Of a stretch of 64,000 bases of DNA, positions 16,363 through 28,739 are shown piece after piece (position 1 is the first letter of the stretch; each line of letters opens with the position of its first letter). The DNA is from an uncultured Dehalococcoidia bacterium (lineage in GTDB: Bacteria > Chloroflexota > Dehalococcoidia > Lucifugimonadales > GCA-2712585), in NCBI GenBank assembly GCA_958295715.1, contig OY282371.1, positions 248,001 through 312,000 on the forward strand, given 5' to 3'. The position numbers and the translations under genes were made by a program. The notes beneath the pieces are model-generated. The model made no database searches. It saw only the letters and a list, made by a program, of their open reading frames with translations, and had not been told where the DNA came from.

Positions 16363-17269
16363 GCCTGCTCCTCCTTCCGACGTTAAGTCCGTCCATTCTA
16401 TCACACGAGGCCCGTCAAACAAGGGACGCGTCGTCGCCTTCCGTCATTCCCGCTTCTCCCCATTCCGTCATTCCCGCGAAGGCGGGAAGGGCGCGCGCGC
16501 CCACTTTTGTTTTGAAGAGCGTTGGCTCTGCGTTGGGGGCTTCCTGGATTCCCGCCTGCGCGGGAATGACGGATAAGGGGGCGGGAATCCATCCCCTGGG
16601 CGTTGCGCCGGGCCAACCGCCCAGAGGCGCTCTTTCCCATGCCTTCGTAAGGGCCACGCCTCTCTTGCCCGTTCCCCATCCCTGTCCGTCATTCCCGTGA
16701 AAACGGGAATCCATCCCTCCCAGGCGTTGCGCCGGGCCAACCGCACCACTAGGCGCGCGCAGAGGCTGCTCTCCCAATCTAACCGCGCTGCCATTCCCGC
16801 CACGCCCCTCTCGTCATTCCCGTGAAAACGGGAATCCAGGAACCCTTCATCCCGATGCCAACGTTTCTCAAGCAAAGGGGGCGTCTCTCCTCTCCCCACG
16901 TAACCACACCGCCCATCCTGTCAAGGGAGAGGGACGGCGGCGGCGGGTGGTCTTGTAATTCCGGGCGCTGGTTTGCGGCGTGGCCTTCCTGGATTCCCGC
17001 CTACGCGGGAATGACGGAGAGGGGGGCCGTCAAACAAGGGATGCGGCCTACCCACAAGACCGGGTGTCGAGGGGATGGATTCCCGCCTGCGCGGGAATGA
17101 CGGATAAGGAGGGCGGGAATGACGGGGTGGGGGATGTGATGCCCAAGGGGCCTGCCAAGGTCCTCCCGACGGACGCCGGCCCGCGGCCATTAACCCCCTT
17201 GGCGCGCCATGGGTTAAACTAGGGCGGCTCGGCGTTGGACGCGTTAGAAAGGAATGACTGGATAGCGGG
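16363..17269. repeat. 900-bp gene-free spacer packed with palindromes
   Basis: At least seven palindromes of the dispersed family are present, near 16463-16490, 16548-16573, 16685-16713, 16814-16842, 16990-17018, 17076-17104 and a partial one at 16440. The core CACTTTTGTTTTGAAGAGCG with GGGCGCGCGCGCCC lies at 16488-16530. GCGTTGCGCCGGGCCAACCG appears twice (16599-16618, 16724-16743). No coding signal or RNA gene is seen. Confidence 0.8.
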
Positions 17270-20075: not shown

Positions 20076-20978
20076 ATGACTGCGATGGACGCGCTGCTGG
20101 AGAGAGCCAAGCCCTTTCAAGGCTACATTTTGCCCTTCCTGGTGGGCGGACTCGCCCTCGCCGCCGCGGCCATTGGGGCTTGGCTGACCGGGAGCGACAC
20201 CCTTGGGGGGCTTAACGGGTTCATAGAGGGGTTGTCGGGGCGCTCCGGCTCCCGGCTGAGCAACATCGGATTTCTGGCCCCCTTGGGCTTCGCCTTCGGC
20301 GCCGGGATGGTGGCCAGCGTCAACCCCTGCGGCTTCGCCATGCTGCCGGCCTATCTGGGGCTGTATATCGGCTCCAACGACCCGCAGACCGCGGCGAGCG
20401 GCCCGGCGCAAAAGCTGGCGCGCGCCCTAATGGTGGGCCTCATAGTCACCTCCGGGTTCATCCTCCTGTTCGGCGTGGCCGGCGTAGTCATAGGCGCGGG
20501 GGCGCGCTTCGTGGTGGGGGCCATCCCGTGGATCGGCCTCATCATCGGGGCGATTCTGACCCTGGCCGGCTCGTGGCTGCTGGGCGGCGGGAAGATATAC
20601 AGCGGGCTGGGGGCCAGGGCGGCGTCCCACATCGGCGGAACCCCTGGGCAGGTCAGCGTAAAGAGCTATTTCCTCTTTGGCCTCAGCTACGGCACCGCGT
20701 CCCTCAGCTGCACCCTGCCCATCTTCCTGTCGGTGATAGGCATCTCCCTGGTGACCTCGGATATTTGGACGGCCATACGCCAGTTCATTCTGTACGCCCT
20801 CGGCATGGGGCTGGTGATAGTCCTGATGACCGTGGGAATGGCCCTGTTCAAGGAGGCCATCGTCCGCATGATGCGGGGGGGCCAGCGATACGTGCAACCC
20901 GCCAGCGCGGTGTTCATGATCCTGGCGGGCTGTTACATCGTCTACTACTGGCTCACCCTGGGCCGCGACCTGCTCTAG
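20076..20978 (+). CDS. CcdA/DsbD-type transmembrane thiol-disulfide carrier
   Basis: The 300-aa membrane protein has the two cysteine-proline motifs that pass electrons across the membrane: SVNPCGFAMLPAYLGLY in the first half and SLSCTLPIFLSV in the second. Seven to eight hydrophobic segments are seen. CcdA sends reducing power from cytoplasmic thioredoxin to extracytoplasmic thiols, for cytochrome c maturation or other thiol reduction. No cytochrome gene is adjacent; the thioredoxin-like lipoprotein at 6.1-7.1 kb could be a partner but is distant. GGAG stands just before ATG 20076. The stop shares CTAG with the convergent gene. Confidence 0.87.
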   Translation: MTAMDALLERAKPFQGYILPFLVGGLALAAAAIGAWLTGSDTLGGLNGFIEGLSGRSGSRLSNIGFLAPLGFAFGAGMVASVNPCGFAMLPAYLGLYIGSNDPQTAASGPAQKLARALMVGLIVTSGFILLFGVAGVVIGAGARFVVGAIPWIGLIIGAILTLAGSWLLGGGKIYSGLGARAASHIGGTPGQVSVKSYFLFGLSYGTASLSCTLPIFLSVIGISLVTSDIWTAIRQFILYALGMGLVIVLMTVGMALFKEAIVRMMRGGQRYVQPASAVFMILAGCYIVYYWLTLGRDLL

Positions 20979-21799
20979 GGGCCGGCGGCGGGGGTCTCCG
21001 AGCGCACGTAGGGCGGCAGATAGCCCGGCCCGTACTCCGACCCCTCCCACTCCTCCCCCTCGTCGTTCCACCGGTAGGGCAGGGCGACGATAGACCCCGG
21101 CTCCTTCATGCCGTCGATGGACGCCAGCGCGTCCCTGACTATCCTACGCTGGAGTTCCGGCTGGTAGGGTTTGCCCGTCTGGTGGCCCAGGGGGAAGTTG
21201 AGGAACACGGCCCGCGGGGGCTTAACCCCCTGGGTGATGTCCAGAGCCGAGGTCATCGAAAGGGTGGGTATCCCCGCCTCCTCCACCGCCCTGGCGACCA
21301 GTCCCACGGACTGGTGGCATATGGGTCAAGCGGGCACCAGGTAGAGGAGGTCCACCCCGGCGCGGGTCAGGCGGCTGACCAGCCTCGGCGCCAGTTCCTC
21401 CCTAACCCTACGGGCCGAGTAGATGCCGCCCATGAAGGCGTAGGCCGGGTCTGCGAACTCGCCGATAAGCCCTTCCTTCTCAAGCTCGCGGAGCCGTGGC
21501 AGGGGGAAGACGCAGTTGGGGTCCTTTTTGGCGTCGCCGGTGCGGTATCCGAAGTGGACAACCCGCAGGTCCTCCGGCAAGGCGTCCGTGGGTATCTCCC
21601 GCAGGGAGGTGTCGTCCTTTGTGTGGAAGGGCGTCTGGCTGACGTGATATACGCCGGCAGAGCCGGCTAGGGCCACCCGGCACTGGCTGAGGGGCTTGGA
21701 CAAGGGCGTCCAGGGAACGTCCTCGTTCACCACCCAACGGTAGGGTTCGTGGCCGCCGTAGAGGGTGCGGGTGCGCGGTATGTATTCGATGGGCGCCAT
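20975..21799 (-). CDS. GrdB/PrdB-family reductase with in-frame TGA (probable selenoprotein)
   Basis: Read through one TGA (21328-21326), this frame gives 274 aa resembling the glycine/sarcosine/betaine and proline reductase selenoprotein B family. The N-terminal part has CRVALAGSAGVYHVSQTPFH and VVHFGYRTGDA, and the C-terminal part has VGLVARAVEEAGIPTLSM and KPPRAVFLNFPLGHQTG. TGA lies exactly where the family has its redox residue: LLYLVPA-Sec-PICHQSVGL, forming a U-x-x-C pair at residue 158. The frame is the same on both sides and both halves are well conserved, so decay is unlikely. ATG 21799 follows the upstream nuclease-like gene by two bases. The substrate is unknown. Confidence 0.8.
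21297..21328 (-). promoter_or_regulatory. Candidate bacterial SECIS hairpin after the in-frame TGA
   Basis: In mRNA sense, UGA (21328-21326) is followed after 18 nt by a perfect 8-bp stem ACCAGUCC/GGACUGGU with the apical loop GUG (loop at 21307-21305). Known bacterial SECIS rules ask for an apical loop 16-37 nt after UGA, a G among the first two loop bases and an upper stem of 4-16 bp. All three hold. The elements are inside the coding region, as usual in bacteria. Confidence 0.7.
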
Positions 21800-21801
21800 G
21801 T

Positions 21802-22527
21802 CTAGGACAGGCCGTTCTGTCTTCCCGCCAGGGCGGCCAGGTTGAAAACGGCGGGGCACTCCCTGCACCGTTTGTTGGGTTCCGGCGGGCCGGCCATGTC
21901 AAACACCTCCTTGGCCCGCGCCATGAGGGCCGGGATGGTTCCCTCCGGGTCCAGGTCCACGGGCACTATGGTGGCCTGCAACTCCATGGTGAAGCCCAGG
22001 CCGTTCACCATTTGGGGATTGGCCGCCGCCACCTCCCCGGTGCAAGGCTCCATGTAGACCAGGGCTATTTGGGACACGGGATGGAAGCCCAAGCGGTTGC
22101 CCAGATAGGCGTAGGCGTTTAGCTGCGCCTGGTAGATGGGCATGAGGCGCTCCTGCCCCGGTGTGTATCTGGACGTCTTGTAATCGACAATGGTGTAGGA
22201 GCCGTCGGCCATTTCGAAGATGCCGTCGGCGGCCCCTCTGATGGTGACGTTCAGGTCGTCGTTGTGAAAGGAGAACTTGCGGTAGGAAGGAGGCTCCACG
22301 TAGCCTTTGACGTGCCCCAGCGAGTCCAACCACCGGGGCATTCTGCCCTCCCGGTCGTGATACTGGTGGACGACCCGCTTGTTGTAGACGTCGATAGAGC
22401 TGAATATGCCCGGAAAGGTCTGGTAGGGCAGGGGCTTCACGCGCAGCTTCACCCACTGGCACCGGGGGCAGGCCCCAGGTACGGCGAAGTCGCCCAGGTT
22501 CTTGGCGGATATGGTCAACGCGGCCAC
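21802..22527 (-). CDS. PD-(D/E)XK nuclease-like protein with cysteine cluster (Cas4/AddB-like)
   Basis: The 241-aa protein has the nuclease core GAADGIFEMADGSYTIVDYKTS, with the Asp and D-Y-K triad, and the QLNAYAYL helix (motif QxxxY) of RecB/Cas4-type nucleases. Cysteines at the N-terminus (CPRCQW) and C-terminus (CRECP) could hold an iron-sulfur cluster, as in Cas4 and AddB. No cas genes or CRISPR array are nearby. GTG 22527 has AAGGTGA upstream. The gene ends two bases before the selenoprotein-like gene, so they should form one transcript; the link in function is unknown. Confidence 0.75.
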   Translation of the reverse strand: MAALTISAKNLGDFAVPGACPRCQWVKLRVKPLPYQTFPGIFSSIDVYNKRVVHQYHDREGRMPRWLDSLGHVKGYVEPPSYRKFSFHNDDLNVTIRGAADGIFEMADGSYTIVDYKTSRYTPGQERLMPIYQAQLNAYAYLGNRLGFHPVSQIALVYMEPCTGEVAAANPQMVNGLGFTMELQATIVPVDLDPEGTIPALMARAKEVFDMAGPPEPNKRCRECPAVFNLAALAGRQNGLS

Positions 22528-23350
22528 GGGTTCACCTTCATAGCGGATGTGAACATGATACCCGACGGGCGCCTTGGCGCCAAGGCGCCACGAGTATTGG
22601 CGCGCGCGTACTTCCTTCTTGCGATGGCCTTGGCCGGTTCAATCCTTCCCGCCCGCCCTGCCGTCATTCCCGCGCAGGCGGGAATCCAGGAACGCCACGT
22701 CATAGAGCCAACGACCGAAATCCGGGCGTCACCCTCCCCCTCCTCGTCATTCCCGCGTAGGCGGGAATCCATCCCCTCACCGCCCCGTTGGCCCGTTCAA
22801 TCCTTCTCGCTCCCCTCCGTCATTCCCGTGAAAACGGGAATCCAGGAACGCCACGTCACAGAGCCAACGACCGAAATCCGGGCGTCACCCCCCCTTTTCG
22901 TCATTCCCGTGAAAACGGGAATCCAGGAACGCCACGTCAGAGAGCCAAGGCCTCAAGCCCCAGGGTCACTTGCGGGGACGCCCGCTCCCCCCCATCCGTC
23001 ATTCCCGTGAAAACGGGAATCCAGGAACCTTTCGCCACAGAGCCAAGGCCCGAAATCCGGGCGTCACCCCCCTTTCCGTCATTCCCGCGCAGGCGGGAAT
23101 CCATGAACCTTTCGCCACAGAGCCAAGGCCCGAAATCCGGGCGTCACCCCCCTTTCCGTCATTCCCGCGCAGGCGGGAATCCATCCCCCCTTCCTTCATC
23201 CCGAAACTAACGCCTCAAGCCCCAGGGCCACCCGTGGGGACGCCCCTCGCCCCTCCCATCCGTCATTCCCGCGAAGGCGGGAATCCATCCCCGGCCCTGT
23301 TGGGCCTAGGGCAACATCCCGCCACCCTCCTCCCGGAAACCCCTTGGCGT
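22528..23350. repeat. Regular array of eight palindromes with repeated spacers
   Basis: Palindromes recur at about 22662, 22746, 22818, 22898, 22996, 23076, 23156 and 23261, some 70-105 bp apart. The intervals are repeated too: CGAAATCCGGGCGTCACCCC occurs several times, and 23037-23116 is followed by an almost exact copy at 23117-23196. It is a tandem expansion of the dispersed element. No gene is present. Confidence 0.85.
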
Positions 23351-24193: not shown

Positions 24194-24563
24194 CGGACTA
24201 CACGCGCGACGAGGGAGTTTTGTACCCCGTGACGGGGTCTTTGGCTGATTTCTCGTGGGGGATGGGAGCCAGCCCGCGCAAGGCCCAAGTCACCGGGGAT
24301 GGATTCCCGCCTGCGCGGGAATGACGGGAGGGGTGGTGGGAAGGGCACGTGTGCCCACTTTTGTTTTGAGGAGCGTTGGTTCCACGCTGGGGCCTTCCTG
24401 GATTCCCGCCTGCGCGGGAATGACGGGAAGGGAGGCGGGAAGGGCGCGTGTGCCCACTTAAGTTTTGAGGAGCGTTGGTTCCACTCTGGGGCCTTCCTGG
24501 ATTCCCGCCTGCGCGGGAATGACGGGAGGGGAGGCGGGGGGGCGGGGAGTCGCGCAAGGTGGC
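24194..24563. repeat. Spacer with a 100-bp tandem composite repeat
   Basis: Palindromes at about 24301-24326, 24401-24425 and 24501-24525 alternate with the conserved core (GGGCRCGTGTGCCCACTT, GTTTTGAGGAGCGTTGGTTCC). The period is close to 100 bp, and the two full units differ at only a few bases. No gene is present. Confidence 0.85.
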
Positions 24564-27050: not shown

Positions 27051-28739
27051 ATGGCTAGGGCTCTTCTGCTATCCGCGACCCTTCTGCTTCTAGTGGCCCT
27101 CACCGCGTGCTTGAGGAACCCCACCGCGACACCCACGGCGGAGCCTAGCCCGACGCCAACGCCTGTCCCGGTTCCCACGGTGGCCCTCACAGTCGCGCCG
27201 ACGGTGGCGCCGACGGTGGTTCCCACAGCGACGCCTCGGCCCACGCCGCGACCGACGCCCAGACCAACGCCGGCGTCCACGCCGACACGGGTTCCAACCG
27301 CCACGCCTAGGCCCACGCCGCGACCGACGCCCATCCCCACGCCTACCCCGGCGCCGACTCCTATTCCCACCCCCATCCCGACGCCTACACCGGCGCCGAC
27401 GCCGGTTCCTACCCCTATCCCAACGCCCGCGCCCACGCCGACCCCGGTTCCAACCCCCACCCCCACGCCGGCCCCGCCAACGGCGGCCGAAGTATTCGCC
27501 CGGGTGTCCCCCTCCGTGGCCTACGTCGAAACGGGCGTCGCCACAGGAAGCGGCATACTTATTGAAGGGGGATACGTCATCACCAACGCCCACGTCGTGT
27601 GGACCCACAACACGGCTAGGGTGGTGTTCCCCGATGGCTCTGAGCATGAGGACGCGCCGGTCACCCACGTGGACCTGCTGGCCGACCTGGCGATTATCGG
27701 CCCCCTAGATACCGAGCTTGAACCCCTGGAATTCGGAGACGGGGAGGCCCTGCCCATAGCCAGCAACGTCTACCTCATCGGCTATCCCGCCGAGTTGGAG
27801 AATGAGAACGTCAAGCCCACCATCACGCGGGGCATACTCTCGCGGCTGCGGCAGTCCGGCTCCGTGGGCGTCACCTATCTACAGACCGACACCGCCATCG
27901 CAGGCGGCCAGAGCGGGGGGCCTCTCTTTTCTGAGGATGGATACGTAATCGGCATGTCCACCTTCGCCTTGGCCTCCTTCACCTTCGCCCTCAACTCGTC
28001 GGTCACCGACATAAGCGAGAAGGTCCAGGCCCTCCTCAACGAAGACCCGTCGGCCGCGCCGGTGAACCGCCGTGTAACCCTGGAGGGCGCAAGGACCAGG
28101 TATAACTTCTCGCTGGATAACCTGTGGGACGCGACGACCTTTGTGATAAGCGAGCCTGTGGGAACCGAGGTGGACATAAGCATAAACAGCGAGAACGACG
28201 TGAATTTCACCGTGGTGAACCCCCGCCGCACTAAGGTCCTCTCGGTGGACTCTAGGAAAACCGGGGCTGAGTCGGGTTCCTTTAAGGTGGGATATGACGG
28301 CCCCTACTTCCTCACTGTGGGCCAGTCCACCAAAGGCCCCGCCCGCGTTAACCTTAACAGCAGCGTCGCCATCTCTCTGTACAAGGACGTTGACGACGGG
28401 CAGAGCGTCTCCGCCGGTCAGACCGTCACCGGGGCGGTGGAGTTTCCCGCGGACCAGGACTACTTCATCATTGACATGGTGGAAGGCGACAGCATCGACA
28501 TACTCGTGGAGGCGGTGCTTATGGACCCCTACGTTGTGGTCCACTGGCTGAGCGGCTCCTACCCGGAGCAGTGGATAGCCGACGACGACAGCGGGGTCGG
28601 GGTCTTTGGGTGGGACGCCAAGCTCACCTTTGAGGCCCCCCACAGCGGCAACTTCTACATCCTGGTGAGGGACGTCTTCGATAACAGGGTTGGGGGATAC
28701 GTCCTCTCAGTAAGCGAAACGCCCCCGCCGGCCTCTTGA
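27051..28739 (+). CDS. Lipoprotein trypsin-like serine protease with Pro/Thr linker and C-terminal PPC-like domain
   Basis: The 562-aa product has a lipoprotein signal ([20 protein letters not shown]). Residues 25-145 are a low-complexity Thr-Pro linker built from [10 protein letters not shown] and [10 protein letters not shown] units. The protease domain follows (about 150-330) with His in ITNAHVV, Asp in DLLADLAII and Ser in [12 protein letters not shown], the HtrA/DegP catalytic order. No PDZ domain is seen. Two beta-sandwich units follow, the last with [17 protein letters not shown] and [13 protein letters not shown], as in bacterial pre-peptidase C-terminal domains. It probably acts outside the membrane. 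Confidence 0.88.
27120..27480. repeat. Minisatellite-like coding repeat of the Thr-Pro linker
   Basis: Short units such as CCCACGCCGACC and CCGACGCCCAGACC recur throughout, in frame with the protease gene. Because they encode the flexible linker, unit number can change by slippage without breaking the reading frame. Confidence 0.8.

Follow-up and report, generated by a model that had tools for sequence, protein, structure and literature searches.

This locus raises the question of whether a reading frame of 274 codons interrupted by a single TGA encodes a functional selenoprotein and, if it does, which kind of enzyme the product may be. The window analysed is a stretch of 64,000 nucleotides (C1:248001-312000) from the 96.6% complete, two-contig, 2.4-Mb genome of an uncultured Dehalococcoidia bacterium. 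The frame, on the minus strand at 20975..21799, was translated into 274 residues, starting with the first ATG (21799-21797), which opens the conserved N-terminus MAPIEYIPRTR, and ending with TAG (20977-20975). Its only TGA is codon 158 (21326..21328), within the motif LVPA-U-PICHQSVG, and the codon for Cys161, the partner in the U-x-x-C motif, is located at 21317..21319. The coordinates, the length of 274 codons and the motif listed in the initial annotation were all correct on translation; the strand, which was absent there, is minus. A TGA-interrupted frame of 274 codons is far beyond chance.

The same annotation had described the two sides of the TGA as sharing one frame and being conserved, and this was borne out by comparison with other genomes. 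Homologues from the same order, with identities of 64-76%, carry the same TGA and continue in one frame across it, and dN (approximately 0.17-0.35) was lower than dS (0.7-2.7) before and after the TGA, indicating that purifying selection acts on both sides. Homologues were present in 15 of the 40 near relatives, every one with an in-frame TGA. Of 393 genomes drawn from across the class, 134 gave matches, and the in-frame TGA was found in all but one among the matches listed; the single clear exception in the class (G154) has Cys at the Sec position (LVALCPVCHQT). It had been proposed beforehand that homologues be aligned to see whether Cys or Sec occupies the TGA position, and the answer was TGA in 40 of 40 distinct extracted family members, which came from MAGs of Chloroflexota, Deltaproteobacteria and Alphaproteobacteria, and Cys in G154. 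Residues invariant in the alignment are D93, N95, F98, P99, G124, D150, U158, P159, C161, E173, P195, R196, G205 and G209. For a collection scan, the broad alignment (A1) contained no block that was conserved enough, and a four-sequence alignment (A2) was used instead. No relatives of the selenoprotein were found among viral contigs.

A SECIS-type hairpin is predicted on the minus strand at 21294..21318, which is 10-34 nt past the T of the TGA, and is composed of an 8-bp stem (ACCAGTCC/GGACTGGT) with a GTG loop and two additional outer pairs. The hairpin recurs among homologues, and its loop opens with G in 34 of 36 sequences. Over 24 distinct sequences, 92.9% of cells pair and compensatory changes occur in six of the ten pairs, with a covariation score of 0.379 as against 0.144 +/- 0.020 for shuffled alignments (0/500) and values of 0.072 or less for slid registers. 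When the hairpin of this gene alone was compared with synonymous recodings, it was modestly unusual (P 0.10 for pairs and 0.018 for energy), and the SECIS assignment is drawn from covariation in the family, not from single-gene hairpin statistics. Its position soon after the UGA and the loop-initial G are the features by which a SelB-dependent element is recognised.

Another check set beforehand was a search of the same genome for selA, selB, selD and tRNA-Sec, and all four were found. Profile searches detected SelA (541 bits), SelB (349 bits) and SelD (368 bits); since the SelD gene has an in-frame TGA of its own (CAGUASK), Sec is used elsewhere in the genome. A tRNA-Sec with anticodon TCA was found by the family search, which is loose (weak matches in 14 of 14 control genomes, above cut-off in five), and was hence confirmed with ARAGORN. 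Decoding of UGA here as tryptophan or some other standard amino acid, a reading for which we found nothing in favour, is extremely improbable given this tRNA, the presence of Cys and not Trp in the TGA-less homologue, and the location of the genome's other detected in-frame TGA at the known Sec site of SelD. A bare reading of the genetic code would make the gene a pseudogene or the product of a sequencing error, with the TGA as a real premature stop and a product of 157 residues; this is very improbable when the same TGA occurs in dozens of genomes, selection acts on both halves, the hairpin covaries and the Sec machinery is full. Because codon 158 has been kept by selection, is followed by the SECIS-type hairpin and belongs to a genome with SelA, SelB, SelD and tRNA-Sec, we consider that it is read as selenocysteine and that, as judged from the sequences, the minus-strand gene at 21799-20975 is a genuine selenoprotein gene.

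As for the protein family, the assignment to GrdB/PrdB made in the initial annotation holds. The product matches the GRDB model PF07355 with 38.5 bits (gathering threshold 22, E-value 1e-9) over positions 211-341 of the 347 in the profile, i.e. in the C-terminal part only, and the PrdB model TIGR04483 with 186.8 bits (4e-55) over residues 28-245, under the equivalog cut-off of 300 bits. Both models match 24 of 24 aligned members, and this gene is the only one with PF07355 in its own genome. These matches indicate homology both to PrdB and to the Sec-bearing C-terminal part of GrdB; the product is nearest to PrdB yet well under the PrdB cut-off, and is described here as a PrdB-like branch. With D-proline reductase PrdB it shares the homologous region, the single-domain size and the Sec in UxxC; it differs in its score, in that PrdA was not found and in the absence of a prd operon. 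With GrdB, GrdH and GrdF (selenoprotein B of glycine, betaine and sarcosine reductase; PF07355, TIGR01917/01918) it shares homology to the C-terminal part of GrdB, and it differs in lacking the N-terminal part, in having UxxC (UPICHQS) in place of UxxCxxC, in its size of 274 aa and in that GrdA and GrdE were not found. Longer PrdB-like selenoproteins of about 390 aa with an extra conserved C-terminal domain, e.g. LRGYYERWIEENNGRTLVGLSGVPQRQFRGLVRF, were observed at L017, L019 and L021 (G004, G023 and G009, respectively), and no Pfam model matches the extra domain.

One alpha/beta domain was predicted by AlphaFold2 (pLDDT 94.5, pTM 0.93), in which U158 lies between a strand (151-155) and a helix (159-174), at the helix N-terminus, the usual site of a nucleophile. 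A sequence search of solved structures yielded no relative, only designed proteins with weak E-values, and searches of the PDB with Foldseek (best E 9e-3) and VIA-align (best Z 8.3) returned a generic Rossmann-like alpha/beta arrangement near background. Because no solved structure is clearly similar, the active site is not modellable on a relative.

The initial annotation had suggested a stand-alone protein with no GrdA partner nearby, and this can be extended to the genome level, where PF09338, GrdA and PrdA were all not found. PF09338, the family of GrdE-type pyruvoyl subunits, which we take to include PrdA, matched in only two of the 40 relatives and gave nothing in the own genome; those two relatives (G009 and G027), which act as positive controls, carry longer GrdB-type genes, with the motifs UGSCNRC and UGTCNRC in G027. 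The PrdA model TIGR04480 and the GrdA model PF04723 likewise gave no match in the own genome, each in a search run without a positive control.

The neighbouring genes were inspected for a partner. Directly upstream, on the same strand at 21802..22527 and separated by 2 nt from the start of the selenoprotein gene, is a gene for a small stand-alone protein of the PD-(D/E)XK nuclease superfamily, RecB/Cas4-like, which is probably co-transcribed with the selenoprotein gene. This gene is retained in just a single genome of the same genus and is not considered a functional partner. On the plus strand, a gene at 20076-20978 is convergent with the selenoprotein gene, the two overlapping by 4 nt. It encodes a multi-pass membrane protein that carries a VNPCGFAMLPAYLGLYIG motif and has a CcdA/DsbD-like look (no Pfam or NCBIfam match), and it too is retained in only one same-genus genome. 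The RlmB, PD-(D/E)XK and CcdA-like neighbours are all kept in G001, and in G002 only the RlmB side. Among the neighbourhoods compared, nothing was shared past close relatives, save rnc, which adjoins the selenoprotein gene in three other families of the class (L086, L092 and L094); in L092 short spacings separate the selenoprotein gene from rnc on one side and smc on the other, an unexpected setting for a reductase. Neighbours elsewhere are diverse (MFS, peroxiredoxin, luciferase-like monooxygenase, CoA transferase, rnc, smc, pirin and glyoxalase). The absence of PF09338 and the unconserved neighbours argue for a free-standing selenoprotein without a pyruvoyl partner.

Other features of the window were noted in passing. 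REP-like palindromic repeats of the CGTCATTCCCGCGCAGGCGGGAATCCA type occur at 22652-23292, and also at 16456-17139 and 24284-24540; the cluster, in which a 42-nt unit occurs 11 times alongside copies in reverse orientation, lies in the gaps around the PD-(D/E)XK and RlmB genes. A plus-strand gene at 27051-28739 encodes, by eye, a secreted-looking serine-protease-like protein with a signal peptide followed by a long proline/threonine repeat linker (PTPxPT).

In the GrdB/PrdB relatives, the amino-acid substrate is held via a pyruvoyl subunit. Since the subunit that lets true proline and glycine reductases bind the amino acid was not found, such an activity is unlikely, and the selenoprotein is expected to be neither a D-proline nor a glycine reductase. 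It might be thought a true PrdB subunit of D-proline reductase whose PrdA is encoded elsewhere, because the best curated model is TIGR04483 PrdB (4e-55) and UxxC sequences of this kind are filed under proline reductase PrdB in the available parts of two marine surveys (PMC1088965, PMC2398784). However, the score of 186.8 bits is to be set against the 300-bit equivalog cut-off, the PrdA model had no match (no positive control), PF09338 gave no match in 38 of 40 relatives as well as in the own genome, and prd-type neighbours were not found; we regard this explanation as improbable.

The free-standing PrdB-like selenoprotein belongs to a family that is already known and abundant, and the present gene is another member. 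According to the available parts of the surveys, PrdB-type UxxC selenoproteins ranked third among families by abundance in the Sargasso Sea, with 42 sequences (PMC1088965), and 235 Sec and 110 Cys members (pfam07355, UxxC) were obtained from GOS (PMC2398784). The marine proteins resemble ours in Pfam family, in the UxxC motif, in having mostly Sec and some Cys, and in being uncharacterised environmental members; ours differs in coming from a Dehalococcoidia genome and in the absence of the pyruvoyl partner, a comparison made with individual marine sequences by description only, as given in those parts. No pyruvoyl-partner test is reported in the available parts of the two surveys (PMC1088965, PMC2398784). 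A 2026 review gives D-proline reductase as the sole function of the PrdB family (PMC13188914), and for the PrdB of that enzyme the source, available to us as a citation therein, is Kabisch et al., 1999. Our literature search found no papers on a PrdB-like selenoprotein in Chloroflexota. In the phylogenetic tree, closely related sequences from Proteobacteria cluster with those from Chloroflexota (100/100 on one branch), a grouping that suggests horizontal transfer; several deeper forks have weak support.

The Sec of GrdB and PrdB takes part in C-N bond cleavage. By analogy with these relatives, our best inference is that Sec158 and Cys161 form a nucleophile-and-resolver pair fed by thiol reductants. 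The Sec158 selenolate at the N-terminus of helix 159-174 would attack an electrophilic bond of a small substrate, which may be a carbon-heteroatom bond as in the relatives or one of disulfide or peroxide type. Cys161, as the resolving thiol, would next form an Se-S bond, to be reduced by a thioredoxin-type system, and the substrate would bind the selenoprotein directly in place of a pyruvoyl subunit.

The choice between these bonds brings in a serious rival, namely that the protein is an antioxidant peroxidase or disulfide reductase and not a reductase of carbon-heteroatom bonds, and we give this rival a real chance, though one below even. The U-x-x-C motif resembles that of redox selenoproteins, the gene stands alone and adjoins the housekeeping gene rnc in three families, and a peroxiredoxin-family gene lies downstream at three proteobacterial loci; on the other hand, the homology is to GrdB/PrdB with their role in C-N cleavage, and a thioredoxin-fold match was not seen among the top structural matches. 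Also pointing away from it is FarB, a GrdB-like selenoprotein proposed for fluoroacetate C-F cleavage in Cloacibacillus (PMC10838667), which offers a precedent for the reassignment of a GrdB homologue to another carbon-X bond via Sec attack. The FarB operon differs in having a GrdE-type partner (FarE), a radical-SAM gene and a transporter, none of which is present at the selenoprotein locus. On the side of carbon-heteroatom chemistry, a wider proposal is that the short PrdB-like forms (UPxCHQ[ST]V, no pyruvoyl partner) constitute a separate family of stand-alone selenoenzymes for carbon-heteroatom reduction in free-living, mostly non-clostridial bacteria, for which the label "proline reductase" would be wrong throughout; we put this forward tentatively, as possible rather than probable. 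For the present gene, we consider it very likely that the whole explanation is right, i.e. that its product is a functional selenoprotein that shares homology with PrdB and with the C-terminal part of GrdB, acting alone and with the Sec158/Cys161 chemistry proposed above.

PrdB-type UxxC selenoproteins are among the commonest in ocean metagenomes, though they are named for an enzyme of clostridial amino-acid fermentation. The lack of the pyruvoyl subunit family in a nearly complete genome speaks against the "PrdB" label, at least for the branch described here. The protein, which is small, single and, by prediction, confidently folded, also provides a handle for testing the real function of this family.
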